Part shown: positions 3,297 to 27,127 of the stretch, one piece after another
How positions within the stretch are numbered: position 1 is the first letter of the stretch
How the letters are laid out: every line of letters starts with the position of its first letter
From: Bacteroidota bacterium
GTDB taxonomy: Bacteria > Bacteroidota > Bacteroidia > Flavobacteriales_D > Crocinitomicaceae
Reading direction: 5' to 3'
DNA length: 64,000 nucleotides
Assembly: GCA_016192075.1 (NCBI GenBank)
Contig: JACPUU010000002.1
Span: 124,001-188,000, forward strand
Position numbers and translations under genes: made by a program
The notes under the pieces: model-generated
What the model saw: only the letters and a program-made list of their open reading frames with translations
What the model was told of the DNA's origin: nothing
Database searches by the model: none

Positions 3297-3303
3297 AAAT
3301 AAT

Positions 3304-3969: not shown

Positions 3970-3982
3970 TTTGATTTTCAAA
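3970..3982. promoter_or_regulatory. Possible operator upstream of the XRE gene
   Basis: TTTGA-TTT-TCAAA is a 5-base inverted repeat 44 bases upstream of the XRE start and also upstream of the divergent gene at 4052. Its position fits an autorepressor site, but short AT-rich dyads are common here. Confidence 0.25.
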
Positions 3983-4051
3983 TGGTTGTAAGTCAAATAA
4001 TGATGCGGTTTTTGAAAATTGGCACATATTTTGGATTATTTATTACAAAAT

Positions 4052-4420: not shown

Positions 4421-4713
4421 AAGAAGAGAATCTCTTTGAGACATTTTTTCCTTAGAATTGATCTAAAAGTCTAGCAGTCAACCTTGAGTTATATACCCTA
4501 AAACTTGTCGGGTAACTAATGAATATAAAGGCCCATTGAAGTACAAGAGTCAAGATTTGCATGTAAAGGAGCAATTTGAAATGCCCAATAATAATCTTTG
4601 TTCAACTTAATAAATTCTCGAATTTACTAATGGATGGAGGAAGCGCCTTGCAACCTTCCTTTCAGAGTCTCGTCTTAAATCCGTACTGACATTAACTCTT
4701 TATAACTTATGCT
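4421..4713. other. Intergenic region without recognisable content
   Basis: I see no convincing frame, RNA or strong inverted repeat here. It separates the element-like genes from the T9SS protein and should hold the promoter for the gene at 4714, but no clear TAnnTTTG box stands out. Confidence 0.4.
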
Positions 4714-5988: not shown

Positions 5989-6148
5989 GAGTGCATCCTG
6001 ACTTTTCCAATGATACCAAGAACAAATTAGCCAGGTCGATTATGGAAAAAGACCGATTCAAAGCGAAATGTTTGTGTCGTTTATGCGTAATTTAATTTTC
6101 AATGTATTGATAACCTGTAGGCAGGATTTGAGAGGATTACCTGCTTGA

Positions 6149-7896: not shown

Positions 7897-8047
7897 ATTT
7901 ATTCTTTTCTGTATAAATTTATTTATGACCTAGGAGTCAAACTTATGGTTCATCTTATTAATTCCACTCGTAACGAAATCCAATTGTAATTTTTGACCAA
8001 ATCTCAATGAGTGAAAGATCAGAAAATCATTCGATAAAAAATATGAT

Positions 8048-9394: not shown

Positions 9395-9397
9395 AGC

Positions 9398-12961: not shown

Positions 12962-13386
12962 GATTTTTTACGATTAAAAGTATATTGAATGTTTAAATGG
13001 GCGTAATTGTTGAACCAGTTGCTTAATTTGATCTGTGAAAATGTTCGCCAAGATAAAACAACAAAATAAATTATGAGTACCAAAAAAATTCTAAATTATA
13101 CCTTTTGTATACATCTCTTCTCCATACTCTGTCAATATTGAGAATTGCATTTATTTATTTTTGAAAGTTCCAGGGTTTCATTCACAAAAACGTAATTTCC
13201 ACATGACAAAAAACGTATTTTCCACCTGACAACTGCGGGAAATACGGTGACAAAAATTCAGAATTCTCAGTCAACGCTTGTATCATGAAAAAAATGGGTT
13301 ACGGCAACATCGAGAAATTTTTTTGATTTCATTTGGCAGCTACAATCACCTATATCGGATAGGTTAATTAGAAGGGGCGTCAAAGG
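12962..13386. other. Intergenic region with a repeat cluster
   Basis: There is no gene here. It holds the upstream region of the subtilase operon and, at 13190-13252, a cluster of near-identical 20-base repeats listed separately. A dyad around TATAC-CTTTT-GTATA lies near 13100. Confidence 0.4.
13190..13252. repeat. Two 20-base direct repeats plus an inverted third copy
   Basis: ACGTAATTTCCACATGACAA (13190-13209) is repeated as ACGTATTTTCCACCTGACAA (13213-13232), 18 of 20 bases identical, with a period of 23 bases. Just beyond it GGGAAATACG (about 13237-13246) is the reverse complement of the repeat start with one change. Evenly spaced repeats of this kind are typical of operators or iteron-like binding arrays. 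No function is shown. Confidence 0.5.
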
Positions 13387-13599
13387 TTACCATTCCTTAG
13401 GAAATATTTTTGCCACGCGTCTGCACGTCAGTATTCGATGAGGTTCAAAACATAATTCTTCTGCAAGTCCAGATTTGAAATTTGCAAGTAGCTTTTCAAA
13501 ATCCTTTTCGGTTTCTCCTGTTTCTAAAGTCAGTACTACGGTTTTTTCCTGCCCCGTTCTTATAATTTCGACTAAAATGCAGTATATTTCAATGTGCAT
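13387..13599 (-). CDS. Small hypothetical protein
   Basis: The ATG at 13599 gives 70 residues (MHIEIYCILVEIIRTGQEKT); a longer frame from 13635 adds 12 residues. The middle is acidic and Thr-rich (VVLTLETGETEKDFEKLLANFKSGL), which suggests a beta strand followed by a helix, and the end is Cys/Arg-rich (PHRILTCRRVAKIFP). It lies alone between two subtilase operons. I do not recognise it, and it could be a chance frame. Confidence 0.4.
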   Translation of the reverse strand: MHIEIYCILVEIIRTGQEKTVVLTLETGETEKDFEKLLANFKSGLAEELCFEPHRILTCRRVAKIFPKEW

Positions 13600-13718
13600 G
13601 ACTATAAACAAGCTCTGTAAACTGAAAGCCTTCAAAAGGGATTATTTAGAGATCATTTTTCTCGGTCAATCCCCAGATTGCGTAAATTTTATTCTGATAA
13701 TTTGAAGTGATCACGAAC

Positions 13719-14777
13719 TTATTCGCCAATCACCTGTTCAGTGCCGCACCCGTCAATTTCAAGCAGCCATACTTCGTTTTGTACATCAATATTAACTTCG
13801 TCCAAAGGAGTAGAAATAACTTTTTGTACTAACAATTTACTGCCGTCATTTGATATGCTTAAATGGTGATAATACCGCGTTCGGCAACCAATTTTTATTT
13901 TGGACCGTGAGCCGTCAGAAGTACTTCCTTTATAAAGTGCTTCCCGGAATCTGGTGTAATAAACATTTCCGTTGGCATAAACTATATCAGTAACCAAACC
14001 AATAGGAGAAGATGAATACAATGAAACGACAGGGCTGGAAGTAACATTATCCAAATCGCTGCTTACTCTGTAAATCCCACTGTATATTCCTTCAAATTCG
14101 CCAACGAAAAAAAATTGGTTATTCTCATCGACAGCCGCAGTCGTCCAATTCTGATAATAATTACCTGGAACCACGTGCGGCGCCATCACTGAATCAACAA
14201 AATTGCCGTTCAGGTCAATAACCATCATTTTATATTCATTGTATAAATCAGGATTGGCCTCAAGTTCAAAATTGGTATAATTTTTCATTCGGGCATAAAT
14301 CACCCTGTCACCTTCAAAATTGAACATTGGAAACTGGTCATTTACATCAAACGTTAGTTGTGTTAATTGCGTACCATCATCCTTAATTTTCCAAACTTTC
14401 CAATTTGTTGTTGAGAATACGATCCAACCTTGTTTTCCCCATTTGGGGGCTGTGGCTATTGGAACTGAATTGCACAATACACTTTCTTCTTTAGTAGAGA
14501 TTGTGTATTTTACTAACTCAGCGTTAGCAGAGACACCCGTGCGAAGAAAAACAAATTCATCGTTGTTGTTTGGATTAAAACACGGTGATAGGTATTGTGT
14601 ACCTGATGATGTGAATACGTAACCGAAACCGGGCTCCGGTGGAAAGTCATGACACCAATCTTCTGTACATCCATCAGGAGGATTTGGAATTACAGGTACT
14701 GGGGTGTCTTTGCGACACCCCAGTACTGCTACTGTAATTACTATAAATGTTATGTTATTCCTTAATGAATTTTTCAT
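13719..14777 (-). CDS. Lipoprotein with TolB-like beta-propeller
   Basis: From the ATG at 14777 this gives 352 residues with a lipoprotein signal (ITVAVLGCRKD, Cys likely lipidated) and a Pro-rich linker. The rest has WD40-like TolB/PD40 blades: YLSPCFNPNNNDEFVFLR, IATAPKWGKQGWIVFST, FPMFNFEGDRVIYAR. The start overlaps the end of the subtilase gene by 23 bases, so they form an operon that mirrors the one at 8048-12961: subtilase first, propeller second. Here the propeller is lipid-anchored instead of T9SS-exported. It may bind peptides or glycans for the protease. Confidence 0.75.
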   Translation of the reverse strand: MKNSLRNNITFIVITVAVLGCRKDTPVPVIPNPPDGCTEDWCHDFPPEPGFGYVFTSSGTQYLSPCFNPNNNDEFVFLRTGVSANAELVKYTISTKEESVLCNSVPIATAPKWGKQGWIVFSTTNWKVWKIKDDGTQLTQLTFDVNDQFPMFNFEGDRVIYARMKNYTNFELEANPDLYNEYKMMVIDLNGNFVDSVMAPHVVPGNYYQNWTTAAVDENNQFFFVGEFEGIYSGIYRVSSDLDNVTSSPVVSLYSSSPIGLVTDIVYANGNVYYTRFREALYKGSTSDGSRSKIKIGCRTRYYHHLSISNDGSKLLVQKVISTPLDEVNIDVQNEVWLLEIDGCGTEQVIGE

Positions 14778-17700
14778 AATAGAACTCATCATTAACAGCA
14801 ATCTTTACAACGTAAGTACCTTTGGAAAGGTTGTTCACGTCAAAATTGACAAATTGTTGTCCTTGACTATAGGATCTTTGCTCAATTGATCGAACCAGTC
14901 TGCCTTGAAGATCAAACATCTCAATCGAAATTTGAGAATCCTGTACAGGCATAAACATAACTGTTAGGTTACTAGACGTTGGATTCGGATAACATGAGTA
15001 ATGGAATTCATTTGCAACAATTTCCCCGACACCTGCATAGTCCGATTCCAAATGTAAGGTATATGCGTAATTAATTGTTGCTCCTGGTGCAAAAGGATAC
15101 CATATATCAACCGGATTTCCATCCTCATCCTCGGTTAAATGGATTATTCTACCAGTCCATGTTGCAGTTGAATTATTAACTCCAGACAGGCTCATTTGAC
15201 CATAGTAATTTGGCTTGTTGTTTGAAAAAGTATTAAGAGCCAACAGGTTGGTGTGATAATGCAATGGCCAAGAGTTAAGGATTATATCGCCCGGATTGAG
15301 GACATGTGAATGTGTTCCTGTAGCTTCCCATACCTCACCCTTATAAGTGCCATAAGCATATCCGCCACCTGGACTTATACCGTAAAAAGTAGTCAACGTA
15401 CCACCACAATTTAAGCATGTTGAAGATCCTGTATTAAATGTTGCTGAACCATAGTAGTGTCTTATGACGTATTGTGATTTGTCTATTTTGTCAAAAACTG
15501 CCCCAGCATTAAGAAGTCCCCAGCCTGTATAGTTATCATATCCAGCTGTTGCAGGAGCTGTAGCATTATCAACTGCATAACGTTGCATCAAAAACTCAAC
15601 GTCTTCAGGCGTTAAATTGCTCGGTGTAGCTGTTTGGTCGTTGATATAACTTAGCATCAGTCCTGCTACACCTGAGACAAAAGGTGCTGATGCTGATGTT
15701 CCTGAGAATGCAGCATACGCATTATTAGAGGTGTTGTGTGTTGACATAATGGTAACCGGATCGGAAGGAGCCATAAGATCGACATTATCATGCCAACTTG
15801 ACTGTGGATGATGGTTTCCAAGGGAATCACTTCCTCCAACAGACATTACCCAATATTCTTTCCTGGCATGTGACGGATATAATTCATCTCCAAAACCTGA
15901 ATTGCCTTTGCTGCAAACCAATAATGTCCCATTTCTAAAAATTTGATTTTGTGCAGATGCCATTAAACTTTCAGAGTATGAATCATAATCATAGTCTTGA
16001 CCAAAGCTGCAATTCATAATATGTAAACCGTATCCATATCCTTCGGTTGTATTGGATGAGCCTTCCAACAGAGCTGAGGTAATGACATCAACACCGTATA
16101 AAAAAAGGTTGCCTGGTTGGGAGACCCTGAATCCATAAAGTGATAATCCATCCATACCACCAGCACCTCCGCCAACACCCGCAACACCTTCGCTGTTATG
16201 GCGGTACGCGCCAATTATTCCTGCAACTGAAGTGCCGTGTCCGTTATACCAAGTCGTAATCGGGTCTCCTCCATTTGCTATCGAACTAAGATCTCCGCCG
16301 GTTCCATAGTCTTTACCACCTTTAATTACTGTAGTACCACTAATGATTCCTTGAAAATCAACATGAGAATATTTTATCCCTGAATCGTAAATTCCAATCT
16401 CTATAGTCGATTTACCTGTTTCGCGGCTCCATGCAGGAAGGATATTTATATCGCAATTGGGGTAGTCGCCTCCGTAGAGTGAATACTGATCAGTGTAAAG
16501 ATCATCGTTTGTAGTAAAGGCAAAAAGAAAGTTAGTTTGCGCATACTCAATGTGAGGTGAAAGAGTAGAATCAATTGAATCTATAATTGCTAATTCATTC
16601 TCGCCTGGAACTGATAAGACAAGGGTTGACCAAAAACTTGGAAAGGGAATTTCATGGCCTTGACGGGTTATTGCAAGTGTATCTGTAGTTGTTAGCCCAA
16701 TGAAAATTTTGTAAGTCCGAACCTTATTCCAATCCACACTTGGATATTTATTGTCGAGTAAATTAATTATACCTGGCTCTACAAATTCATCCAATGTGCC
16801 AAATGTGATTTCCTTGTTATCAATAATCTCATGCTTTATTGAATCAGGATTAAATGAAATAATTACTTCATCACCTATATAGTTTGCTACATCGTTGGTA
16901 TCTAAAACAGGCGTCATTGTCCTTTCATCAATTGAATATTTCAAAATATTCAAGCGGTTGATACCTACTGTTTTTTCAAGTCCGGTGATATACACCTCTT
17001 TTCCGTAAACATTAATATCATACGCTTCATAATTCACTGTATCGCTTTGGTAATCTCGTACTAATTTTATTTCACCATCTGTATCATATTTCACAAACAA
17101 CATTTTGCTTTGGCCTCCAATAGTTGATGTTCCGGTCAGGTAAACATCACCGTTACTGTCTACACTCATTTTTTCAGCCCGCGCATTTTCAAGTGGCCCG
17201 GAATTTCCAATTTCACGAACCCATTGCTGCGTGCCTGAACTGTTGAATTTAATGGTGAGGAAATTTGACCCACCGTTTTGCAGATAGGTAACCCCGGTTA
17301 CATAGACATTTCCACTGGCATCTACACCAATGTCTTTTCCGATGTCATCGTAATCGCCTTGGTAATTGACGATGTAGACCAAGGAAAGATTTGAGTCCAA
17401 CTTTACTAATTGTAAATCCTTATCCCCGGAAAGTGCATACCCGGTAATGTACACGTTATTGAGTGCATCAGTTGTCATGGCAAAAGCCTCTTCCATTGTT
17501 GCACCGGTAACGTTCGTCCGGTTGGTATTGGAAATAACTCCGGTGGATTTGTTTACAGTAACGGTAGCAATGTCCCAATCTCCGGCATCAGCGGCAGATA
17601 CCCCCGTTACATTGTAGGTAGTTGACCCACCGCCAGCAAAACCGGACGCCCCGTCATGCAAATGGGCGTAATCGTAATACTGGCTATATACAAGTGATCC

Positions 17701-18258
17701 CGTGCTGGAAATTTTTACTATACCATAGTCAGACAGGCCATTGGAAGACTCCGACAAACCAACTACATAGGAGCCGATTGCACCGGCTCCGTCAATGTTA
17801 ATTGCCGTTGGCACATCGTCCCCGTTAGCGACTCCGTTCCACGTATAACTCCACTGCAAACTACCCGCTGAATTGTATTTTAAAATGCGGTAATCATAGC
17901 CGGTATAAGTATTTTTAACCGCCGCCACCACGTATACGTTTCCACTGGCATCGGCCTTGAGGTCAACTCCGTAATCGTCTCCGTTGGCGGATCCACTGCT
18001 GGTCACCATCCACAAAGTGTCTCCATTGGAATCGTACTTAATGGTCAATACATCAGCATCACCATTTCCGTTAATGGTGTTACCTGTTACGATCAGTTTA
18101 CCCGATTGCACAATAGATGCGGTATGAAACAGGGCATTGCCGACAATAGGCGTCCTATCAACCCATTCAAGGTTGGTGTAGTTCATTTGTGCAAAGCCGC
18201 CGGAAGTTACAAAAATGCCTCCCGCCAAAAGCCATGCGCTTTTTAGTATTCGTTTCAT
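14755..18258 (-). CDS. Second giant secreted subtilase (S8) with SBBP propeller and T9SS domain
   Basis: The ATG at 18258 is chosen because it starts a good signal peptide (MKRILKSAWLLAGGIF to GGFAQ); this gives 1,167 residues, and an in-frame start at 18303 adds 15 non-signal residues. Layout matches the 9398-12961 protein: SBBP propeller blades (residues about 30-450), then the S8 domain with Asp625 (IYDSGIK), His674 (GHGTSVAGI) and Ser855 (SGTSASAPFVSG), then a beta region and a T9SS domain (CYPNPTSSNLTVMF, DLQGRLV, GTYVVKI). The N-termini (TNLEWVDRTPIVG versus ANREWVETGPVVG) are clearly homologous. A duplication within the island is likely. Confidence 0.9.
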   Translation of the reverse strand: MKRILKSAWLLAGGIFVTSGGFAQMNYTNLEWVDRTPIVGNALFHTASIVQSGKLIVTGNTINGNGDADVLTIKYDSNGDTLWMVTSSGSANGDDYGVDLKADASGNVYVVAAVKNTYTGYDYRILKYNSAGSLQWSYTWNGVANGDDVPTAINIDGAGAIGSYVVGLSESSNGLSDYGIVKISSTGSLVYSQYYDYAHLHDGASGFAGGGSTTYNVTGVSAADAGDWDIATVTVNKSTGVISNTNRTNVTGATMEEAFAMTTDALNNVYITGYALSGDKDLQLVKLDSNLSLVYIVNYQGDYDDIGKDIGVDASGNVYVTGVTYLQNGGSNFLTIKFNSSGTQQWVREIGNSGPLENARAEKMSVDSNGDVYLTGTSTIGGQSKMLFVKYDTDGEIKLVRDYQSDTVNYEAYDINVYGKEVYITGLEKTVGINRLNILKYSIDERTMTPVLDTNDVANYIGDEVIISFNPDSIKHEIIDNKEITFGTLDEFVEPGIINLLDNKYPSVDWNKVRTYKIFIGLTTTDTLAITRQGHEIPFPSFWSTLVLSVPGENELAIIDSIDSTLSPHIEYAQTNFLFAFTTNDDLYTDQYSLYGGDYPNCDINILPAWSRETGKSTIEIGIYDSGIKYSHVDFQGIISGTTVIKGGKDYGTGGDLSSIANGGDPITTWYNGHGTSVAGIIGAYRHNSEGVAGVGGGAGGMDGLSLYGFRVSQPGNLFLYGVDVITSALLEGSSNTTEGYGYGLHIMNCSFGQDYDYDSYSESLMASAQNQIFRNGTLLVCSKGNSGFGDELYPSHARKEYWVMSVGGSDSLGNHHPQSSWHDNVDLMAPSDPVTIMSTHNTSNNAYAAFSGTSASAPFVSGVAGLMLSYINDQTATPSNLTPEDVEFLMQRYAVDNATAPATAGYDNYTGWGLLNAGAVFDKIDKSQYVIRHYYGSATFNTGSSTCLNCGGTLTTFYGISPGGGYAYGTYKGEVWEATGTHSHVLNPGDIILNSWPLHYHTNLLALNTFSNNKPNYYGQMSLSGVNNSTATWTGRIIHLTEDEDGNPVDIWYPFAPGATINYAYTLHLESDYAGVGEIVANEFHYSCYPNPTSSNLTVMFMPVQDSQISIEMFDLQGRLVRSIEQRSYSQGQQFVNFDVNNLSKGTYVVKIAVNDEFYYEKFIKE

Positions 18259-18741
18259 TGATAAAAATTTTAGTGAATAATTGAAAGTAAATGTTTGACT
18301 CATTCCAAAGAAAACCCAAAGTCATGGGGGACAGTTTTTACGTTTGACAAACAAAACCAACTGAATATGTTTCCTATGTGAAAAATATCTTTCAGCGTTC
18401 ATAGTATCAAAATTACGGGGCTCTTAAAAAATAAAAAGTCTTTTTCTAAAGACTCAGCGCGGTGAAATTTACTTCATGAAGACGGAATTCTGATCCATGA
18501 AGGAAGGTCTAAATTAGAATTAAAAAGCCTATCGATTGTAAACGAATAATATACAATTGGGATTTTAACAAAGGGACGTAATTCCCGCATTCAATTATTG
18601 CGGGTACCCGCATATCAAATTGAAAAATTTAGCGGAAACCCGCAATAAAATAACCTGATTTGTTTAGGGAAAACCCTTAATTGAAAATCCGTAATAATAT
18701 TCGTCCAATGAAACCGTTAATAGCTTTACTAGAAAAGAAGT
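18259..18741. other. Divergent intergenic region
   Basis: There is no gene here. The stretch separates the second subtilase operon (minus) from the T9SS gene at 18742 (plus) and contains the perfect palindrome at 18599-18612 and several CCCGCA copies. Confidence 0.4.
18599..18612. repeat. Perfect 14-base palindrome in a CCCGCA repeat cluster
   Basis: TGCGGGTACCCGCA is its own reverse complement. Further CCCGCA copies lie at 18584-18589 and 18639-18644, so the first copy and the palindrome can also form a hairpin. The region is otherwise AT-rich, which makes the GC blocks stand out. It could be a regulator site or a transcription end signal between divergent genes. Confidence 0.4.
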
Positions 18742-21000
18742 ATGAAATTTTGCGCCACTTACATTTTGGGACTTGTGACATTTGTTGCGAATGCACAAAC
18801 CGAATTTGTCTCTCCACTTTTGAATAACCCCAATATACAAGCAACTCCCACTCAGATGCGTTCCGGTGAGAGCATAGACAGCACGTTTGTATATCATATT
18901 GATACACTCAATTTGCCTGTTTATGACGATTTTTCTGTGAGCAGATTTGAAAAATATGATGCGAATTATATCGATCCCAATGTTACTTCTCAGCAATATT
19001 TCTATTTAATGAATAGCACCAATGACATTCCTCAAAATCCTACGGCTATATTCTGCGATTCTTCGCACAATCGTCATGAAACAGTTTCAGTTGTTGCAGG
19101 AATTCCAACGACAAGCATTGATTATTTTTCTGCCGCGATGCCAATTTGGGTAAATGATCTTAGTTTGTTTCCTGTTCAAGGCGAAATCAAAAATGTGTTT
19201 CAGGAATGCTATACGCTTCGAGATACGGTTATAGATGGAATTCCAGACCCGGATCAGGATACTATTTTCTATACATCATTGCCTGATTATATTCAGGACT
19301 CCGCAAATGTTTTCTTTGTTGATATTGATGCCCAGGATAGAATCTGGGTTGATAATTACGCGTATCACAATTACACTTTTTCAGTTGCTCCCTGGTCACT
19401 TGGCGTTGCTACTTTGGACGGTGTTGATGAGAATGGGTGGCCTTATGATTTTGATAATTTGTCTGCCCAGGGATCGGCGGATGTTCTTACCTCAAAGCCA
19501 ATAAATCTTGCCGGGAAAACAAATGTGTGGCTGACTTTTTTATACCAGGCCAAAGGATATGGTGATGATCCGGAACCCAATGACAGCTTAATCCTTGAAT
19601 GGTGGCTGCCAGACTACAACGCATGGTTACCGAGTACGTGGTGGGTGGTGGGAAATATACCAAATGACGTGTGGAAACTCAGACATCAAGCCATTCCCAC
19701 ATTAGCATTGGACAACGGATTCAGATTTAGATTCAGAAATGTTGCTTCGACTTCCGGTGCCCTGGATCACTGGCATATTGATTATGTGATACTGAAGGAC
19801 AATCAATTTGCTGGAGATACAATTATCAATGATCTTGCTATTTCAGAACCAATAAAAAGTTTTCTTAATACCTATACGGCAGTTCCCTGGGATCATTTCC
19901 AGAACACTACCTCTGGAGATAAGATGCTGACAACCCTCAAAGTGACCGCATTCAACAGTGCAACAACACCTACTAATTTTGACGATGGAGAATTGGAAGT
20001 AACTTATTCAGGAATCCTCCAGGGTGGTGGTCCATTTGTATTACCAAATCCTGGAGTCGCTCCTGGTTGGACAGGGAATTGGGAGATTGGTATGAATCAA
20101 TACCCGTATGCCTTGTCTTCAAATTACATTTACGATCAGTCAGTAACTTCAAATCCCCAAGCCAGATTTGATGTGAAGCTGAACATCGCGGCGGCGGTAG
20201 CTGGTTCAAATGTGTATGCAGAAAATGATACCACCTATTTTTCTCAGAGGTTTGATAACTATTATGCTTATGACGATGGTTCAGCAGAAGCAGCATACGG
20301 CATAACCGGCGATCACGCGCTCCTTGCTTACAAGTTTACCGCGTATGAAGAAGATACACTTACCGGAATCCTAATGCACTTTGTTCCGAGTGTAAATGAT
20401 GTAAGTGATGAGACTTTTCTTTTGACCATTTGGGATGACAATGGAGGCGTTCCCGGAAACATTATTTATCAGGACGATTATTTCAATACGCATTCACCAA
20501 TTTATAGTGGAGGTATCAGCGCATTTAAGTACTACAAATTTATGAATGAACAGCATGTTGTTGTACCTCAAACTTTCTACGTTGGATGGGAACAAATTGA
20601 ATCCATTAGTTTAAATGTGGGGATGGACAGAAACATTAATAACGGTTCCAAAATATACCGGAACAATACGGGAACATGGCTGACCTCTTCTTTCCAGGGT
20701 TCGTTGCTCATTCGTCCGGTATTTTCAACAGACTTAAATTATACACTTTCAAAGGATCAAAATCAGGTTGAAGAAACCGAAATTTTGGTCTATCCTAATC
20801 CGACTGAAAATTTTATTTCAATTCTTGGAGCAAGTGGAGACTTCATTGTTACGGTTTATGATTTAAGTGGCCGGGCTGTGGCACAATCGGAGAACGAAAA
20901 CAGAATTGATGTTTCAGGACTTCAAACGGGAATATATCTTGTCAACATTGAAGACCAGAGTGGGACTTCCTTATTTTCTGGCAAAATTGCAAAGCTTTAA
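18742..21000 (+). CDS. Large secreted T9SS sorting-domain protein
   Basis: This is a 752-residue protein with a signal peptide (MKFCATYILGLVTFVANAQT). The body is beta-rich and Asp/Asn/aromatic-rich; residues about 200-370 look like a jelly-roll or MAM-like module (DNLSAQGSADVLTSKPI, VWLTFLYQAKGYGD, FRFRFRNVAS, DHWHIDYVIL), and residues about 500-650 like a second sandwich. The C-terminus is a T9SS type A domain (VYPNPTENFISIL, DLSGRAV, GIYLVNI). No catalytic residues were recognised. It probably acts as an adhesin or matrix protein at the cell surface. Confidence 0.8.
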   Translation: MKFCATYILGLVTFVANAQTEFVSPLLNNPNIQATPTQMRSGESIDSTFVYHIDTLNLPVYDDFSVSRFEKYDANYIDPNVTSQQYFYLMNSTNDIPQNPTAIFCDSSHNRHETVSVVAGIPTTSIDYFSAAMPIWVNDLSLFPVQGEIKNVFQECYTLRDTVIDGIPDPDQDTIFYTSLPDYIQDSANVFFVDIDAQDRIWVDNYAYHNYTFSVAPWSLGVATLDGVDENGWPYDFDNLSAQGSADVLTSKPINLAGKTNVWLTFLYQAKGYGDDPEPNDSLILEWWLPDYNAWLPSTWWVVGNIPNDVWKLRHQAIPTLALDNGFRFRFRNVASTSGALDHWHIDYVILKDNQFAGDTIINDLAISEPIKSFLNTYTAVPWDHFQNTTSGDKMLTTLKVTAFNSATTPTNFDDGELEVTYSGILQGGGPFVLPNPGVAPGWTGNWEIGMNQYPYALSSNYIYDQSVTSNPQARFDVKLNIAAAVAGSNVYAENDTTYFSQRFDNYYAYDDGSAEAAYGITGDHALLAYKFTAYEEDTLTGILMHFVPSVNDVSDETFLLTIWDDNGGVPGNIIYQDDYFNTHSPIYSGGISAFKYYKFMNEQHVVVPQTFYVGWEQIESISLNVGMDRNINNGSKIYRNNTGTWLTSSFQGSLLIRPVFSTDLNYTLSKDQNQVEETEILVYPNPTENFISILGASGDFIVTVYDLSGRAVAQSENENRIDVSGLQTGIYLVNIEDQSGTSLFSGKIAKL

Positions 21001-21019
21001 AAAATGGATAGAAACAAAC

Positions 21020-21802
21020 CTAGCAGATATTCTTTGATATTGTCAAGACATACCCCACTACCATGCCAGTATCTCTTATTTGGTCATAATAATCATAGTT
21101 GTATCTTTCGTGCCAGCCACCATTAGCCTCCAGGGAAGCATAAATAATTTCAAACATTTCTACATTAAAATTCAGTATCGGGTAAATTAGCTTAAGATCT
21201 TCGCACTTTTTTTCCCAATAACTTTGCTCCTCGGCTGTTCTTGATTTTATAAAATCATCTGTGACAAGAATATTGTCCTTATCAATTCGCCTTAGAAAAC
21301 CGCAAAAGCAATACTCGATGCTATTTGGAGAAATATTATCCGATCTTATCATTGCATCACTCATTCTCTTCACATCATGAATAATATCCCCTGCGACTTT
21401 ATTTATACCCTTTAATTCTATTCCTACTAAGGTTCTTTCTTCCATGAACGTACTATTCCCTAACTCTTCCCTCGTTATTGCAATGTCAATTTTTTGGTGA
21501 TGGTTTTTGGTAGGAGAATGCCCATCTTGTCTAAAAGTCGGTTCTCTATCATAAAAATCCTTTATGTTCCAGTCCATTTCACTAAAAGCATTGTTAAAAA
21601 AATACAGGACTGGATATTCAATTCGAATTTTGAAAGAATAATCCTGATTCCACTCAAGTAATTGTTGAGCGACATTAACGGTGAGTAAATATTCACGTAC
21701 CTGATCAGTAAAGTTTGTATAGGAACCTATAAGAAGGATATTCTGTCTATATCCTTTCCTCAATCCTATTTTAATACTCTCCTTTATCTCAGTTGAATTC
21801 AT
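21020..21802 (-). CDS. Probable PD-(D/E)XK nuclease-fold protein
   Basis: The protein has 260 residues and no signal. The middle has the restriction-nuclease pattern: Asp106 in KIDIAI, then 23 residues later Glu129-Leu-Lys131 in VGIELKG. This D..ExK spacing on two strands with charged helices around it fits a PD-(D/E)XK core, as in HNH-free restriction enzymes and many defence effectors. The N-terminal part may be a specificity or dimer region. It lies convergent to the T9SS gene and next to the four-gene unknown cluster. Family not recognised; the nuclease call rests on motif spacing alone. Confidence 0.5.
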   Translation of the reverse strand: MNSTEIKESIKIGLRKGYRQNILLIGSYTNFTDQVREYLLTVNVAQQLLEWNQDYSFKIRIEYPVLYFFNNAFSEMDWNIKDFYDREPTFRQDGHSPTKNHHQKIDIAITREELGNSTFMEERTLVGIELKGINKVAGDIIHDVKRMSDAMIRSDNISPNSIEYCFCGFLRRIDKDNILVTDDFIKSRTAEEQSYWEKKCEDLKLIYPILNFNVEMFEIIYASLEANGGWHERYNYDYYDQIRDTGMVVGYVLTISKNIC

Positions 21803-21942
21803 TTTGGACGTCGGAGTTTGTTAATTTCATATTTCCACGAAGACGGTCTTGTGAATAGAACAATCACAAAAAAATTCAACACATATTTTATTTTTTTCAT
21901 TTCTTAAAACTTAAAGATGTTATTCAAGTTTAATCGAGAGTT

Positions 21943-22380
21943 TTACTTCATGAGATCGAAATCATCATTGGTAGAAATGGGGAAATTTGAACCAGATGTT
22001 TCTTTTGTCTTTATTGATTTTCTAACCCTGATAAGCGCTTCCTGGTTTATTAAATCCTGGAGCAGATTTTCATAATATTTAATCGGTTTCTCGGTCTTCA
22101 GGTTATAAACATTTTTCATTTTCCGGATTTGATGTCTAATAACTTCCTGCATATTATCTTTAAGAAAGGTGACACAAAATTTTTGCGCTTCTGGTCGCGT
22201 ATCAAGAATAATTCGATTGGTCGTGCTTACATCTGCCAGCGTTGGAAGAATTACCCAACATCGTCTATCCTCAGTTTGTTGGATAACGAAACGACTATAA
22301 CTGTCCGGTAACTCAGGACAAAATCCCTCAATTTCTTTTGAAGAACCCTTGGCCGCTCTCCATTCTATCTCATCAAACAT
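21943..22380 (-). CDS. Hypothetical protein, last gene of a four-gene unknown cluster
   Basis: The ATG at 22380 (MFDEIEWRAAKGSSKEIEGF) gives 145 residues; a TTG at 22404 would add 8. The product is soluble: a short N-terminal helix with IEW, then strands (SYSRFVIQQTEDRRCWVILP, TNRIILDTR), then a long basic helix (QEVIRHQIRKMKNVYNL), and an acidic tail (NDDFDLMK). A perfect 10-base inverted repeat lies 37 bases upstream, which suggests its own regulated promoter. No family recognised. Confidence 0.5.
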   Translation of the reverse strand: MFDEIEWRAAKGSSKEIEGFCPELPDSYSRFVIQQTEDRRCWVILPTLADVSTTNRIILDTRPEAQKFCVTFLKDNMQEVIRHQIRKMKNVYNLKTEKPIKYYENLLQDLINQEALIRVRKSIKTKETSGSNFPISTNDDFDLMK

Positions 22381-22416
22381 AACCTTTTCTTCAAACGACG
22401 CCAAAAGTTACGAATA

Positions 22417-22439
22417 AAAACGTAAACGATTTACGTTTT
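22417..22439. promoter_or_regulatory. Perfect inverted repeat, likely operator
   Basis: AAAACGTAAA-CGA-TTTACGTTTT has two perfect 10-base arms around a 3-base spacer. A further half site TTACG lies at 22408-22412. It sits in the only sizable gap within the minus-strand cluster, directly upstream of the 21943 gene. The size and symmetry fit a dimeric HTH repressor site better than a terminator, as there is no long GC stem. Confidence 0.55.
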
Positions 22440-22466
22440 AAAGGTTGCTGTTGCAAAAATGCGTGA

Positions 22467-22727
22467 TTATTGATCCTCTCCCAGGATCTCATCCAATTGG
22501 GGCAAATATTTCTCTATAATTTCGTTTGCCTCTTTATCAAATAGATTCATGTGTTCTTTCATTGAAATATTATGGTCGTCCTGGTATCTTTCAAAAGGCT
22601 TGTTTGTTTTTACAATGTCAATTATAGGCCGCATGAATACCCATGTCATAAACTCATCCAGCACAAGGGGTTTGCGGGTTAAATCGCTGAATCTTTTTGA
22701 ATCTGATCGGAATTGAGTGAGATCCAT
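22467..22727 (-). CDS. Small hypothetical acidic protein
   Basis: This is an 86-residue, mostly helical protein (QFRSDSKRFSDLTRK at the N-terminus, EANEIIEKYLPQLDEILGEDQ at the acidic C-terminus) without signal or membrane segment. It follows the 22737 gene by 9 bases and should be in its operon. It has no match I recognise. Small acidic proteins next to HTH regulators are sometimes antitoxins or DNA mimics, but nothing here proves that. Confidence 0.5.
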   Translation of the reverse strand: MDLTQFRSDSKRFSDLTRKPLVLDEFMTWVFMRPIIDIVKTNKPFERYQDDHNISMKEHMNLFDKEANEIIEKYLPQLDEILGEDQ

Positions 22728-22736
22728 ATACAGCCA

Positions 22737-23147
22737 TTACAGGTTTTCAATTCGCTTGTTTGCATATTCTATAAAAAATGCTTTCACCAAGTAGCGAACA
22801 AAATCAATCAATTGTGCTTTAGATAATTTGGGTAAAAAGGGGATGCAGCTCAAGCCTTGATATTCGAGCCTCTCGCATGAAATGTAGAATTGAAAATTCC
22901 CTGGATGGCAGAGGAATGGATCTCCCGTTATAATTATTACGGTATGTCGGTAAATGCCGTTTTCAAATGGTTTCCGCAATACGTAAGCCTCAAATTGAAT
23001 AGGAAAGTTCCAAAATGGTCCTTTCGACGGGGAATGATAATTGAATTCAAATTCATCCTCTATATGCTCATCCGGTGCTGGCAGTTCGTATTGCAATTTA
23101 CAACTGTTATTCTCAAAGGGTGGCTTTAATTCTTTGTCCTTGTTCAT
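22737..23147 (-). CDS. Hypothetical protein
   Basis: The product has 136 residues, with an acidic, Pro-rich N-terminal third (PAPDEHIEDEFEFNYHSPSKG), a beta-rich middle (PIQFEAYVLRKPF, YRHTVIIITGDPF, FQFYISCERLEYQG), then a helix (SKAQLIDFVRYLVKAFFIEYANK). It starts at an ATG 3 bases after the stop of the gene upstream and is followed 9 bases later by the 86-residue gene. I do not recognise the fold or family. Confidence 0.5.
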   Translation of the reverse strand: MNKDKELKPPFENNSCKLQYELPAPDEHIEDEFEFNYHSPSKGPFWNFPIQFEAYVLRKPFENGIYRHTVIIITGDPFLCHPGNFQFYISCERLEYQGLSCIPFLPKLSKAQLIDFVRYLVKAFFIEYANKRIENL

Positions 23148-23150
23148 TTT

Positions 23151-23453
23151 TTAGAGATTTTGCAGACAGAGGAAAGCGTAAATTTTCTTAGCGAGATCTT
23201 CTAATTTTTTCCGACCATTTTTTAGATCAATCCTGTGAACCTTTTTGCAATACCTTAGATATTGCTCATAAATACGCTCGTTCTTGGGGTTGTCTTTGTC
23301 AAGCCCCATCAGCTCAAAGATGTTTGAGCTAATGTTCAAGCAATAGTAAGCTGTATCTGGGCTGAGCTGATCGAGAATTATGAGCAGTTTAGTATTTACC
23401 AGGTCGTCTTGAATCATAGACAAGACCAACCGTTGCTTCTTCTTTTTGCGCAT
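23151..23453 (-). CDS. Hypothetical basic helical protein, first gene of the unknown cluster
   Basis: The ATG at 23453 gives exactly 100 residues (MRKKKKQRLVLSMIQDDLVN); a TTG at 23474 would add 7. The sequence is helical: LVNTKLLIILDQL, TAYYCLNISSNIFELMGL, NERIYEQYLRYCKKVHRI. The very basic N-terminus suggests nucleic-acid contact. The promoter region is shared with the divergent XRE gene and carries TATCGTA repeats. Family not recognised. Confidence 0.5.
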   Translation of the reverse strand: MRKKKKQRLVLSMIQDDLVNTKLLIILDQLSPDTAYYCLNISSNIFELMGLDKDNPKNERIYEQYLRYCKKVHRIDLKNGRKKLEDLAKKIYAFLCLQNL

Positions 23454-23500
23454 ATCAAAATTTTTTTTCAACAATTCAAAACTACAAAATAATACTTAAA

Positions 23501-23540
23501 TACGACAAATTTTATCGTATATCAATGAAATTATATCGTA
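23501..23540. promoter_or_regulatory. TATCGTA repeat operator between divergent genes
   Basis: Three half sites lie in the 160-base divergent spacer: TACGA at 23501, TATCGTA at 23513-23519 and TATCGTA at 23534-23540. The two identical copies are 21 bases apart, two turns of the helix, on the same face of DNA, and the first is inverted to them. This is a typical layout for repression by a small XRE protein such as the one encoded from 23614. Confidence 0.5.
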
Positions 23541-23601
23541 ATTAATGTTTTAGATGGCTGATAGCCTAAGAATTAGAAGTAAACAGAAAGGCATTTAATG
23601 A

Positions 23602-23609
23602 TAATTTTG
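23602..23609 (+). promoter_or_regulatory. -7 promoter box immediately before the XRE gene
   Basis: TAATTTTG fits TAnnTTTG and ends 4 bases before the ATG at 23614. Transcription would then start at or just before the start codon, giving a leaderless mRNA as is known for some phage repressors. It could also be chance in this AT-rich spacer. Confidence 0.4.
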
Positions 23610-23613
23610 GAAT

Positions 23614-23826
23614 ATGCCTGATAAACCCGAGAAAATCAACCGCATCAAAGTCGTTCTTTCGGAAAAAGATATGACTATGGCTCAGTTGGCCAAGCTGGTT
23701 GATAGAAATCCCGATTCGATTTCGAGGATATGTAGGAATGAATCCCAACCAACCTTAAAATTGCTTAAGAAAATTGCGTTGGCCTTAGATGTGGACATCA
23801 AAGACTTGCTTATATCAACTAAGTAG
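23614..23826 (+). CDS. XRE/Cro-C1 family HTH repressor-like protein
   Basis: This 70-residue protein is a complete small XRE domain: INRIKVVLSEKDMTMAQLAKLV, the recognition helix region NPDSISRICRNESQP, then LKKIALALDVDIKDLL. It is a paralogue of the 3681-3926 protein. It is divergent from four unknown genes, with TATCGTA repeats between them, and followed after 34 bases by the Ntn-like gene on the same strand. It is the likely regulator of both arms. Confidence 0.85.
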   Translation: MPDKPEKINRIKVVLSEKDMTMAQLAKLVDRNPDSISRICRNESQPTLKLLKKIALALDVDIKDLLISTK

Positions 23827-23860
23827 TTGGTACACAAGGCTGGTTCTAAATAGTGATTTC

Positions 23861-24703
23861 ATGGAAAGTTTGGCATTTATAATCAATCAGTATTTTGCGC
23901 TAATAGCCGTCGACTCGCGATACGAAATTAATACCGGGCCATTTACTGTGAAAATGCCAGCAGCGAAGAAGGTATTCAAATTAGCCGACGCTATTGTCAT
24001 TGCCGGTATCGGTAGCCCTTACAGGGTGACAGATGTAAATAATTATCTTTCTAGACTTCTTGAAAGTGGGCGCGAAATTTCTCATGAATCTATTTTGAAT
24101 GACCTGGATTTTGCTTTTAATAACGCTGAATCTGGATTTTCAAATGAAATAAATGAATTAAAAAATGTGTTGACCCGATTCGTTGATGAAAATGGATACT
24201 TAAGGACGAATGATGTCCTTGAATTCTTTAAAGACGAACCTGCAAAAATAGCCTTGTTGCAAGAGTCAATTTTATTATCCCATAAATCTGTTCCAGGAAT
24301 TACCCAAATCATGCTGATCTCATGGGATAAAGACTTACCGTCATTGCGCGTGACCCTAGTGCTTTCTGTGGGACAAAACCTGGTACGAAATGATCTTGAC
24401 TTTGTTCCGGGTGGTATTTATCTCAAATTGCTGAGCGGACATACCGAGGCTGATCGAATTCTCTCTGTTGAATCGGAGTTAAATGCGCGATTAAACTCAA
24501 TTGTTGAGAATATTAGAGCGTGGGATGAGAATGAGACAAATTACTTTATGGATAATGCAAGGGAATTGCTTGCAGAAGGATTAAGACAAATTTGCCCATA
24601 TTCCGAAGAACCGAATATTTTGTTTTATGAACTAAGTAACCGAACAGATTTTAAAATCACTGAACCGGATTTAAAACTTGATCTTATAAAGTTTAATCGA
24701 TAG
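23861..24703 (+). CDS. Unknown protein resembling the proteasome/HslV (Ntn hydrolase) fold
   Basis: The ATG at 23861 gives 280 residues; the frame also opens upstream within the HTH gene, but that part overlaps it and is unlikely to be used. By eye the order of elements matches proteasome beta-type proteins: a strand FALIAVDSRYEIN, then KVFKLADAIVIAGIGSP (like the proteasome K-I-x-x-L-x-D-x-x-x-x-x-x-G strand pair), a helix with VNNYLSRLLESG, and near the end FVPGGIYLKLLSG (glycine turn) with a helix NARELLAEGLRQICPYS and a last strand ILFYELSNRTDF. No N-terminal Thr, Ser or Cys follows the start Met, so it may not be a self-processing hydrolase. An insertion of about 90 residues splits the fold. 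The assignment is tentative. Confidence 0.4.
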   Translation: MESLAFIINQYFALIAVDSRYEINTGPFTVKMPAAKKVFKLADAIVIAGIGSPYRVTDVNNYLSRLLESGREISHESILNDLDFAFNNAESGFSNEINELKNVLTRFVDENGYLRTNDVLEFFKDEPAKIALLQESILLSHKSVPGITQIMLISWDKDLPSLRVTLVLSVGQNLVRNDLDFVPGGIYLKLLSGHTEADRILSVESELNARLNSIVENIRAWDENETNYFMDNARELLAEGLRQICPYSEEPNILFYELSNRTDFKITEPDLKLDLIKFNR

Positions 24704-24711
24704 AATAATGA

Positions 24712-24909
24712 AATGTTAGTGCAGTAACAAAACTATACTTAGTAGTCCATTATGACGCAAAGAAAAAGAAAGACAAGGCAAAAGAAGCTGGAAAAATTGA
24801 TATGTTTCGGTTAACCTTTGGCGAAGAATTTATGCGCCAACATACTGGTCAAATAATCACTGATCAGAACTTCGCCATTGTCGAACTGATTGCAAATACT
24901 TGAGATGCG
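24712..24909 (+). pseudogene. Remnant of a GHKL/Hsp90-like ATPase
   Basis: An open stretch without a usable start reads LVVHYDAKKKKDKAKEAG, then FRLTFGEEFMRQHTGQ and FAIVELIANT, and stops at TGA (24901). The next two codons are GAT GCG, then another TGA. ELIANT-stop-DA is exactly the GHKL N-box E-x3-N-x2-D-A with the residue before D lost to a stop, which a TGG to TGA change explains. Nothing resembling the rest of the ATPase follows before the convergent helicase gene at 24926. I read it as the dead 5' end of a former gene of this island. Confidence 0.6.
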
Positions 24910-24925
24910 TGAGTCTAGTTGAAAT

Positions 24926-26410
24926 TTATTTCTGATTCAATATTTCTAAACATCTTGCCAATATTTCTTGATTTTTTATTACTACAATTCCGAGTTTTAG
25001 TCGCGTTCTAGAAACAATTTGAAACAGCATTTTTGTTGGATGATAGTAAGGATTATTCTTGTAGTTTCTTGTGGATAAGTAACCACTTTTATAATAAAAA
25101 TGTCCATCAATTACCGCAACTACGTTGTTAAACTCTTGACCAATCACAGTATGTGCATTATCGGATTCAATTTCAAGATTATGTGCTTCATAAGGTAGAG
25201 CATTTACCGTTGAAGGCGTATAATTGATTACCTTCCAATCCTCATCTCTAAGTTGCTTCAAATAAGCTTTTGCCTCTTCGTAATTGTCAAAATAGTTAAG
25301 CTCAATGTTATCATATTTATATTTTTCTAAACTCCTTTTCTTACTGAATAAGCACTGAATGAACGAAGCGACTTCTTTATTTGTCCTTATTTTATTGGTC
25401 AATTCATAGGGGTTAGATGTAAGTTCTTGTTCTATTTTTTCTGCTGCGTTATTGTTTATCTCTCCTTTGCGTAAAGTCTGTTGACCGTCGTAAGAAAAAA
25501 TAATGTTATTTGACAACTTTTTAACTTGACTAATTAAGTGGTTCAATTGACTCGTATATATTCTTTGCGCTTCATCAACAATGATTAAGTGGTATTTAGA
25601 TAGATCCTGGTGCATGACAACTTTGACCGGAATAATATCCCAAGCAAAATTATCACGCAATAGGATTTGTCCATCATTCAAATAACCGCAGTGTACGACC
25701 AGTATTTCTTTCGTGTTTAAAACCTCATTTGCAATATCATAAGTTAGCAAGGTTTTGCCGGTCCCGGCATTTCCTTTTATTGCGAGTATTGAATGTTTAG
25801 GTGAACTTAGCTGCTTCAAAACGTCATTTTTAATTTCTTCTTGTTGCTTAGTCAGAAAATATTTCCTCTTAACAAATTCTTGAGTTGAATTGAATGGAGA
25901 AACCAAGTAGTTTGCTGGGTTAAAATAACTGTCAAGATTGGGTATTCTTTTTACCTTTTGAGAAACCAATTCTCTTATTAATTGCCTTAGACTGACCTCT
26001 TGCAAAATGTTTGCAGGATCAAGGATGTACAGCTTTTTATAATCAGCAACATAAGTGTAACAATTGATAGTCTTATTTAAGAAGCCTAAGTAATATTTAT
26101 TTCTTTGCAATTGAGCAGCAATTGCTTCTTCAGTACTATTCCTTTTCAATTCAATGTTTACAATTGTTTCTTGATCCATTCTTAAAAGGTCAAATTCTTT
26201 ACCAATTTGAGGAATTGAATAGCCAATGAAATATTTATCAAACAGGGCAATACTCTTGCTTAGTCCCTTCAAATGATCTACAAAGACTTGCAAATCCTTC
26301 AATTCACTATTTTTTATCTTGGTTCCGTGATAATTCAGGTATGAGTCAAAAGAATCCTTGTCTAGATTGTTGTAAGCGCTTAGAATGGATATGAGGTTAG
26401 TTTCTTTCAT
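24926..26410 (-). CDS. Nuclease-helicase fusion with DUF2075 (Schlafen-like) helicase domain
   Basis: The protein has 494 residues. Residues about 50-130 form a PD-(D/E)XK-like nuclease (GKEFDLLRM with Asp74, then IELKRN with Glu87 and Lys89). Residues about 205-490 are a DUF2075 P-loop helicase: Walker A GNAGTGKT (213-220), Walker B LIIVDEAQR (Asp279, Glu280), FSYDGQQTLRKGE, and a C-terminal motif DNAHTVIGQEFNNVVAVIDG, followed by LFQIVSRTRLK with the arginine finger region. Proteins of this build occur in defence islands and are thought to process DNA or RNA. It stands alone, with a dead ATPase fragment at its 3' side. Confidence 0.8.
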   Translation of the reverse strand: MKETNLISILSAYNNLDKDSFDSYLNYHGTKIKNSELKDLQVFVDHLKGLSKSIALFDKYFIGYSIPQIGKEFDLLRMDQETIVNIELKRNSTEEAIAAQLQRNKYYLGFLNKTINCYTYVADYKKLYILDPANILQEVSLRQLIRELVSQKVKRIPNLDSYFNPANYLVSPFNSTQEFVKRKYFLTKQQEEIKNDVLKQLSSPKHSILAIKGNAGTGKTLLTYDIANEVLNTKEILVVHCGYLNDGQILLRDNFAWDIIPVKVVMHQDLSKYHLIIVDEAQRIYTSQLNHLISQVKKLSNNIIFSYDGQQTLRKGEINNNAAEKIEQELTSNPYELTNKIRTNKEVASFIQCLFSKKRSLEKYKYDNIELNYFDNYEEAKAYLKQLRDEDWKVINYTPSTVNALPYEAHNLEIESDNAHTVIGQEFNNVVAVIDGHFYYKSGYLSTRNYKNNPYYHPTKMLFQIVSRTRLKLGIVVIKNQEILARCLEILNQK

Positions 26411-26544
26411 TGATGGTAAGAAGACGTTAAGTGCTAAACTTACGTAAAAAAGAGAACTTCAATTTAATCATAACAAACTAGGAAATGGGGTTGACTTTCT
26501 TGCTTATATTCAGTATATTGCACCATTAATTTAAAATTAAATAC

Positions 26545-26685
26545 ATGAAAATTCAAGCCATTAAACCAGGACCGAAACCAATTGCTCCATCAACTGGCAA
26601 GCCAGATCGACGCCGGAGAGATAATAAAAGCACCCCTGGCAACACCCCTGGCTTGAAACCGAGTAAATCAACAAAAAAGAAATAA
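26545..26685 (+). CDS. Lys/Pro-rich microprotein 1
   Basis: This 46-residue frame has no hydrophobic segment and is very basic: KPGPKPIAPSTGKPDRRRRD, then STPGNTPGLKPSKS and KKK. It shares with the next frame the plan K-P-x-P-K, A-P-S, G-x-P, R-x-x, N, and a KKK end. The start is ATG and the two frames are 9 bases apart. The sharp match of plan between neighbours argues that both are real. The role is unknown; such tails suggest RNA or DNA binding, or disordered linkers. Confidence 0.5.
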   Translation: MKIQAIKPGPKPIAPSTGKPDRRRRDNKSTPGNTPGLKPSKSTKKK

Positions 26686-26694
26686 TTAACGTAT

Positions 26695-26817
26695 ATGGCA
26701 AAAACGACTAAACCAGCCCCGAAAAATGCCCCTTCAAAAACGGGTAATCCTTCGGGGGGAAACCGTGGGAATAATCCTCCAAAGGCAAAACCCTCATCAC
26801 CGCCCAAAAAGAAGTAA
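26695..26817 (+). CDS. Lys/Pro-rich microprotein 2
   Basis: This 40-residue frame reads TKPAPKNAPSKTGNPSGG, RGNNPPKAKPSSPPKKK. It is Pro, Lys, Asn and Gly rich with no aromatic residue and is certainly disordered. It looks like a diverged copy of microprotein 1 in the same operon. It ends about 105 bases before the tRNA fragment, so the pair is the last thing coded in the island. Confidence 0.5.
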   Translation: MAKTTKPAPKNAPSKTGNPSGGNRGNNPPKAKPSSPPKKK

Positions 26818-26922
26818 AAAACAGGTGTTTCAAATTGGTGTGTCAAAATGCTGGGTTTTGTAATAAAATGATTAATTTTGCCGTCCTAAGTCCTTTGATA
26901 ATACTGAAAAGCTATAATGTAT

Positions 26923-26972
26923 GGCGGGCTCATAACCCGAAGGCCGTCGGTTCGAGTCCGGCCCCCGCTACT
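26923..26972 (+). mobile_element. 3' half of an initiator tRNA-Met gene, probable attachment-site end
   Basis: The sequence CGGG-CTCATAA-CCCG (26925-26939) is the anticodon arm of an initiator tRNA (CAT anticodon, three G-C pairs in the stem), followed by a T arm (GGTTCGAGTCC) and the acceptor strand CCCCGCT plus A. The 5' acceptor strand and D arm that should lie about 25-45 bases before are absent; the DNA there is unrelated. A tRNA cut in the anticodon arm is the usual scar of a tyrosine recombinase element: the element restores a full tRNA at its other end and leaves the original 3' half here. That places the element to the left. Confidence 0.7.
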
Positions 26973-26977
26973 AAAAA

Positions 26978-27053: not shown

Positions 27054-27125
27054 GGCTCCCTAGTTCAATGGATAGAATGAAAGTTTCCGGAACTTTAGAT
27101 CCAGGTTCGATTCCTGGGGGGGCTA
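27054..27125 (+). tRNA. tRNA-Arg (anticodon CCG)
   Basis: The cloverleaf closes: acceptor GGCTCCC with GGGGGCT (two G-T pairs), D stem GTTC/GAAT, anticodon stem AAAGT/ACTTT around the loop TTCCGGA (CCG anticodon, Arg), a 4-base variable loop, and T stem CCAGG/CCTGG around TTCGATT. Discriminator is A and the CCA end is not encoded. It is followed by a good terminator. It is likely functional, and belongs to the host chromosome just right of the island end. Confidence 0.85.
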
Positions 27126-27127
27126 CT

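Follow-up and report, generated by a model that had tools for sequence, protein, structure and literature searches.

What does a tRNA gene reduced to its 3' half mark in a bacterial chromosome, and what kind of DNA lies beside it? The question is raised by the window analysed here, a 64,000-nucleotide stretch of a Bacteroidota genome (C1:124001-188000; the genome comprises 4.65 Mb in 22 contigs), for which a sequence-only reading had proposed an initiator-tRNA 3' half at 26923-26972. Feature coordinates are collected in the table at the end of the second section.

The half tRNA-fMet and its intact partner

The 3' part of a tRNA-fMet was confirmed at window positions 26925-26971, its start lying two bases inside the proposed position; it reads CGGGCTCATAACCCG...CCCCCGCTAC and extends from the anticodon stem/arm to the 3' end. 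Scored with the Rfam tRNA model, the stretch reaches 22.7 bits, below the gathering score of 29, and ARAGORN did not call it in the window, both of which are expected because the 5' part of the tRNA is absent. When the whole genome was searched with the 47-nt sequence, allowing up to three mismatches, two copies were recovered, both exact: the one in the window (C1:150925) and one at C1:107771, within an intact tRNA-Met(CAT) gene (C1:107745-107817). No third copy was found in this search, and no other complete tRNA-fMet was detected in the genome. The chance expectation for a 19-nt piece with three mismatches allowed is 0.01 per window. The longest exact stretch common to the two copies is 50 nt, reaching from the anticodon stem to 3 nt beyond the tRNA. 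The copies lie 43,154 bp apart on the same (+) strand, and their identity ends abruptly on the 5' side, where the upstream sequences are unrelated; the sequence-only reading had described the 5' half as replaced by unrelated DNA. Its expectation that an intact tRNA-fMet with the same 3' 45-50 bases would be found to the left was also borne out, and the first gene beyond this tRNA, after a gap of 136 bp, encodes a tyrosine integrase that has no second match in its own genome. The D-loop region of the intact tRNA-fMet is one base shorter than that of a relative, G004 (GCAGTGGTAGC versus GCAGTTGGTAGC). At window 27190-27420, past the host tRNA-Arg, a stretch of ~55 nt ending CATTCTGGAATAGGGAATTTTCAAATTTTGC occurs in two near-identical copies ~180 bp apart.

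A relative lacking the insertion, which had been suggested for comparison, was found in G004, a single-contig genome of the same family. It carries one intact tRNA-fMet, flanked on both sides by host genes colinear with those here: relatives of C1:94312 and C1:96015 on the left, and, in the same order on the right, relatives of C1:162220, 163246, 166542, 167651, 170002, 170877 and 171347. No element homologs were found in G004 between the flanking host genes. The agreement is one of gene order among the more distant flanking genes, as the ~11 kb adjoining the site on each side lacks homologs in G004; a left-flank gene, C1:95204, has a weak 35% match in G004 on the right side instead. The possibility had also been raised that the same half tRNA would occur in relatives without the element. 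The full half tRNA was not found in G004, whereas an 18-nt copy of the extreme 3' end of the tRNA is present ~330 bp downstream; the site therefore looks like an insertion hotspot that bears older scars and may have been used before. Among the other four regions fetched, G022 and G025 retain gene 96015 only (G022 with an additional weak 27% match), genes 162220 and 163246 lie on the opposite side of the tRNA in G026, and G006 has none of the flanking genes. A homolog of C1:162220 lies 5' of the tRNA-fMet in 12 relatives (L040, L042, L044, L045, L047-L050, L054, L058, L062 and L066), unlike the arrangement here and in G004, so the neighborhood has been rearranged within the order.

Taken together, the paired tRNA copies, the adjoining integrase and the gene order in G004 point to a tRNA-targeted element that is almost certainly integrated in the tRNA-fMet gene, with the half tRNA in the window as its right end, attR, as the sequence-only reading had proposed. 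The whole element spans ~43.15 kb between the 50-nt repeats. From the observed anatomy of repeats and integrase we infer a reaction in which the integrase, encoded at the left end, would recombine the chromosomal tRNA, in its anticodon-arm region, with an element site bearing the 3' part of the tRNA. At the left end (attL) the tRNA would then be completed by the element's own 3' copy, and the chromosomal 3' part, now displaced, would mark the right end.

Operon, cargo and integrase relatives

The left ~19 kb of the element is occupied by an operon on the minus strand, which runs from window position ~2500 leftward and beyond the window. From the 172-aa protein on, it encodes proteins of 172, 596, 207, 235 (capsid-like), 132, 149, 109, 270, 59, 254 and 308 aa, followed by two endolysin-type proteins, a 69-aa protein, a 1740-aa RadC/methylase/helicase protein and a 497-aa ATPase. 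Transglutaminase-like, endolysin-type and capsid-like are predicted designations. Among relatives of the 596-aa protein, 11 of 17 match DUF553 (best E 2.6e-4), and relatives of an endolysin-type protein occur in 24 phage records, mostly of crAss-like and Bacteroides phages.

An alignment search with the 235-aa family screened 159 candidate stretches of genome_contigs and identified 126 relatives, of which the best 80 were taken. Of these best 80 of 126, 78 carry titles of Bacteroidota groups, one is a MAG labelled Saccharospirillaceae (L121) and one is titled 'bacterium' (L111). All nine core genes are present in 68 of the 80 loci, and the order of the operon genes looks constant across them. 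The individual families were counted in 76 (596-aa), 78 (207), 80 (235), 80 (132), 79 (149), 79 (109), 79 (270), 73 (59), 71 (254), 63 (308), 58 (endolysin), 52 (large protein) and 17 (ATPase) of these best 80 loci; since loci end at contig ends or at 10 kb, the distant operon genes are undercounted. By whole genomes, the capsid-like family was found in 26 of 399 from the order and in 3 of 395 from a phylum-wide sample, the genome studied here being included in both.

Between the integrase and the ATPase, a patatin-like remnant of 35 codons was observed (C1:109762-109869; 20 residues are 80% identical to the protein of G162). A full-length patatin-like gene (386-398 aa) stands at the same place in G162, G025, G005 and G010, and was Pfam-tested in G025. 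With the gene reduced to a remnant here and present in four of the five relatives fetched around the operon, this copy of the element may be partly decayed.

The region between the operon and attR, ~24 kb of the 43 kb, carries cargo: five T9SS-sorted proteins, two of which are subtilases, together with defence genes. Five further genes lie between the Tin-like and Nhi-like genes (window 21943-24703), one of which has a 41% relative in a second element on contig C16 of the same genome, described below; PADLOC gave no match for any of the five, and Pfam none for the three scanned.

Relatives of the integrase were sought in 200 genomes of the family at E 1e-30 or better and were found in 23, its own genome included; a tRNA lies nearby in 11 of the 19 loci fetched. 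Four of the five nearest relatives (L225, L226, L228 and the partial L238; integrases 49-53% identical) adjoin tRNA-fMet, and the fifth, L227 (48% identical), has no tRNA within its ~1.5-kb flanks. The integrase of L229 (45%) adjoins tRNA-Val, and more distant integrases adjoin another tRNA-Met type, tRNA-Ala and tRNA-Phe. Among the four genomes with a close integrase at tRNA-fMet, the capsid-like gene was found only in G199, where it is cut off by the contig end; it was not found in G346, G205 and G412, so the same integrase type moves other elements too. Both an integrase relative and a capsid-like gene are also present in G176 and G283.

These distributions bear on whether the DNA between the repeats is a single unit. 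It could be a composite island, in which an old tRNA-fMet integration, with an integrase and right part unrelated to the operon, would have received insertions stacked between the same repeats. Such a history would be consistent with the occurrence of close fMet integrase relatives without the operon in three of four genomes, and with the difference in GC content between operon (0.438) and cargo (0.382), the flanks being at 0.426 and 0.420. It is unlikely, however, given that contig C85 of G283 carries the 45% integrase beside tRNA-Val together with the capsid-like gene at a spacing similar to that found here, that subtilase relatives flank the operon also in L110, L112 and the second copy of this genome, and that the repeat has no third copy in the genome.

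Table. Positions of the features of the element and of its right-hand border (C1, contig coordinates).
Feature	Position	Strand	Remarks
attL, partner of attR	C1:107771-107820	+	same 50 nt; 16.2 kb left of window
Tyrosine integrase, 437 aa	C1:107954-109267	-	PF00589 E 1e-7 (above cut-off), phrog_1 E 1.8e-24
ATPase (497 aa, AAA_24/AAA_25-like)	C1:109887-111380	-
RadC/methylase/strawberry-notch protein (1740 aa)	C1:111388-116610	-	RadC, helicase and weaker methylase matches
Endolysin-like protein	C1:116829-117527	-
Predicted jelly-roll proteins	C1:121562-121960 and 122059-122766	-
596-aa transglutaminase-like gene, end	window 1..1328 (C1:123538-125328)	-	family related to SSIP-1 structural gp34
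Element, right-hand 26.9 kb	window 1..26924		rest (left 16.2 kb, C1:107771-124000) outside window
172-aa operon protein	window 1403..1921	-	N-terminal hydrophobic stretch
69-aa small hydrophobic operon protein	window 1918..2127	-
111-aa operon protein	window 2147..2482	-
Two small related divergent genes (95, 110 aa)	window 2934..3582	+	beside operon in 13 loci
T9SS-sorted protein (Por_Secre_tail)	window 4714..5988	+
Defence pair: RiboL-PSP-HEPN protein and GmrSD_N/NsnA-like protein	window 6149..7896	-
T9SS-sorted protein	window 8048..9394	-
T9SS-sorted subtilase (Peptidase_S8)	window 9398..12961	-	relatives in C16 second element, L110, L112
360-aa cargo protein	window 13719..14801	-	no Pfam match
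Second T9SS-sorted subtilase	window 14755..18303	-
T9SS-sorted protein	window 18742..21000	+
Tin-like defence protein	window 21020..21802	-	PADLOC
Nhi/AbiO-like helicase defence protein	window 24926..26410	-	last large gene before attR
attR, 50-nt direct repeat, element right end	window 26925..26974	+	tRNA bases 26925-26971
Host tRNA-Arg(CCG)	window 27054..27126	+	first host gene past element

Predicted folds, related elements and the nature of the element

Two operon proteins are predicted to be jelly rolls. For the 235-aa family, the L109 relative (83% identical to the protein here) was modelled with AlphaFold2 (pLDDT 81, pTM 0.77); the model has eight strands in residues 76-235, a predicted single jelly roll. 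A Foldseek comparison of this model with the PDB at E 0.001 yielded five matches, namely two EhV-201 capsid chains, the FLiP penton, SPV1 and an endospore appendage, and its top fold match in BFVD is I1ZBH9 (211 aa). The VIA-align Z scores are 8.0 for EhV-201, 8.0 for SPV1 (152 residues, rmsd 4.0), 7.9 for an iridovirus, 7.7 for PBCV-1, 7.4 for PRD1, 7.3 for HHIV-2, 7.1 for HCIV-1, 6.8 for SH1 and 6.6 for P23-77; among the 50 matches listed, 28 belong to viral proteins, and the other 22 all represent the non-viral enzyme PHM (7.3-7.8). The model of a 132-aa family relative is an eight-strand beta barrel (pLDDT 90), for which PHM comes first in VIA-align (8.4), followed by HHIV-2 (8.0), a capsid-unit chain of cyanophage Pam1 (8.0) and SPV1 (7.2); no Foldseek match was obtained at E 0.001 or better. 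A Z of ~8 is the level graded as possibly chance by the fold-comparison tool, and these fold scores are borderline. Taken alone, the values could be due to chance; they gain their weight in combination with the matches to the virus SSIP-1.

By sequence, the best PHROGs match among 58 capsid-like proteins is E 0.0022, for one member. As single queries, neither the capsid-like nor the 596-aa protein matched phage records or IMG/VR, and profile searches of solved-structure sequences gave no useful match for either the capsid-like or the transglutaminase-like family. An alignment-based pattern scan of IMG/VR for the capsid-like family returned two contigs.

The matches to SSIP-1 concern other operon genes. 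When the 29 SSIP-1 proteins were searched with hmmsearch, the ATPase family matched gp40, annotated as a structural protein and ATPase, with E 1.9e-15 (HHalign 98.2%), and the transglutaminase-like family matched the structural gp34 with E 2.1e-13 (HHalign 95.9%). The large protein matched gp43 (structural, methylase) weakly (BLASTP 3e-5 over the methylase part, hmmsearch 2.9e-4, HHalign 0.4%). A sequence relation of the capsid-like family to gp45/gp46 was sought with HHalign and was not significant, 42 of 200 column shuffles scoring as high. The order of gp34, gp40 and gp43 in SSIP-1 differs from the operon order here; the element is therefore treated as related to SSIP-1 and not filed as a member, gene order being no formal membership criterion for SSIP-1, which is itself unclassified. 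In IMG/VR, SSIP-1 gp46 and gp34 matched only one contig, which is 43,788 bp like SSIP-1 and 100% identical in both proteins.

Related elements were examined in five relatives fetched around the operon. In G162 the operon lies between an intact tRNA-Met and its 48-nt 3' copy, 39.3 kb apart, with a tyrosine integrase at the far end. In G025 the tRNA-His, at which a large serine recombinase (PF00239, PF07508) stands, has a 16-nt copy of its end at a distance of 30.7 kb; in G010 a serine recombinase adjoins tRNA-Leu. Bounding repeats were thus found in G162 and G025, whereas G005 and G010 showed none. Four of the five relatives have a tRNA no more than 3.2 kb from the ATPase end, the exception being G122, whose stretch contains no tRNA. 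The serine recombinase genes L210:6961-8571 (G025) and L218:6246-7937 (G010) run into tRNA-His and tRNA-Leu, respectively; according to the authors of the Islander work, tyrosine integrases are the only integrases known to use tRNA genes as targets (PMC4383910).

A second element was found in the genome studied here, at C16:194184-220181 (L191, L192), beside tRNA-Asp and cut by the contig end. Its operon proteins are 29-83% identical to those of the first, a RadC-like protein and a C5-cytosine/N6 methylase fusion replace the large helicase protein, and it has its own subtilase cargo. Up to the contig end, no relative of the integrase was found in it; bounding by tRNA repeats was considered and set aside, no second tRNA-Asp fragment being seen before that end.

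The operon also has a free relative, on the circular 53-kb plasmid pPP10 of Persicobacter psychrovividus (L067), which carries replication and partition genes. Its capsid-like protein (30% identical), 132-aa protein (24%), ATPase (26-31%) and large protein (48-55%) stand in the same order as here, whereas its remaining operon genes correspond only in size and position. The 1.07-Mb plasmid pPP1 of the same strain (L254) carries an internally deleted relative, 92-97% identical where aligned. Bacteroides phage BS-TP4, with annotated portal and tail spike proteins, matches through the large helicase protein only.

The large protein invites a different reading, that of an integrative conjugative or mobilizable element, with a real integrase, transfer by conjugation and an operon serving some other purpose. 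RadC-methylase-helicase proteins are indeed common on plasmids, with matches in 2,835 plasmid records, of which 1,917 are predicted to be conjugative. Nevertheless, Pfam identified no relaxase or type IV secretion family among the 30 of 38 element proteins scanned (all but eight small ones), pPP10 is typed as non-mobilizable, and endolysin-like and predicted jelly-roll proteins are a poor fit to a conjugative element. We consider conjugative transfer quite unlikely as the explanation.

We favor instead the reading, which we judge probable, that the element is a provirus from a lineage of tailless viruses with SSIP-1 as a relation. It would be a temperate, tailless, probably membrane-containing dsDNA virus. 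On the basis of homology, predicted folds and conserved gene order, the products of the operon would include a capsid protein with a single jelly roll, another jelly-roll protein, several hydrophobic proteins, the ATPase, the RadC/methylase/helicase protein and an endolysin, and the provirus would ferry ~24 kb of defence and secreted-protease cargo. The hint of a membrane comes only from the several hydrophobic operon proteins. No FtsK/A32-type packaging ATPase is named among the element proteins.

A capsid-like operon might also have been retained by the host as a virus-derived, non-viral particle or domesticated element, for example for gene or protein delivery, with the defence and protease genes as its cargo. 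The large share of cargo (~24 kb of 43 kb), the two element copies in one genome, the decayed patatin gene and the strong conservation of the capsid-like protein could all be accommodated by such a role. We nonetheless give it little credence, because the three operons that can be delimited (this one and those of G162 and G025) each lie between tRNA-derived repeats with a recombinase and the recombinase types vary between copies, as expected for mobile units, and because a free circular relative exists in Persicobacter.

If the provirus reading is true, the defence genes and secreted subtilases are explained as one block here, and a kind of dormant tailless virus has seemingly gone unnoticed in many Bacteroidota genomes. 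With somewhat less assurance, we lean toward a broader view in which these elements form an unnamed temperate tailless lineage with a single-jelly-roll capsid, spread across Bacteroidota as tRNA proviruses and phage-plasmids, which would have SSIP-1 as a distant cultured cousin, swap tyrosine and serine recombinases, and transfer defence and T9SS-protease genes. Should they be proviruses, SSIP-1 would acquire relatives, and mesophilic Bacteroidota, among them the cultured carriers Lishizhenia tianjinensis, Chitinophaga eiseniae and Persicobacter psychrovividus NBRC 101262, would become a broad home for single-jelly-roll viruses; the entry into lysogeny and cargo movement of such viruses would become directly testable.

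Comparison with known systems

Islander-type islands are described as having a tyrosine integrase and a tDNA with a displaced fragment (PMC4383910). The element shares with them, as described there, an intact tRNA, a 3' fragment in the same orientation, an integrase inside, the anticodon crossover class and a size of 43 kb; no difference in anatomy was seen, but the module that the element carries is unusual. Although the att sites have a textbook anatomy, they mark off cleanly a single unit of a mobile family that goes unrecognised by the phage-family library.

Sulfolobus polyhedral virus 1 (SPV1) and the sphaerolipovirus-type single-jelly-roll capsids (HHIV-2, SH1, HCIV-1, P23-77) are among the nearest solved folds to the predicted capsid-like fold (Z 6.6-8.0), with the differences that their hosts are not the same, that there is no useful sequence match and that non-viral PHM scores alike.

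SSIP-1 is reported to have a T = 49 capsid and a 44-kb genome and is listed as unclassified, with the entry 'single jelly roll?' (PMC6260650). Elsewhere it is treated as a vertical single beta-barrel virus (PMC4958249), described as hardly similar to anything in GenBank (PMC6356626) and counted among the viruses of extremophile Bacteroidetes (PMC7198788). No SSIP-1-like proviruses are described in the literature searched, which is weak evidence of absence as most subscription journals lie outside its coverage. SSIP-1 has a 43,788-bp circular dsDNA genome, comparable in size to the element, and, like it, an annotated integrase; it also has the large structural methylase gp43. Its capsid proteins are not significantly alignable with the capsid-like protein of the element. 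Common to both are the related ATPase (gp40) and the related structural protein (gp34). Unlike SSIP-1, the element is integrated at a tRNA and carries defence and T9SS cargo.
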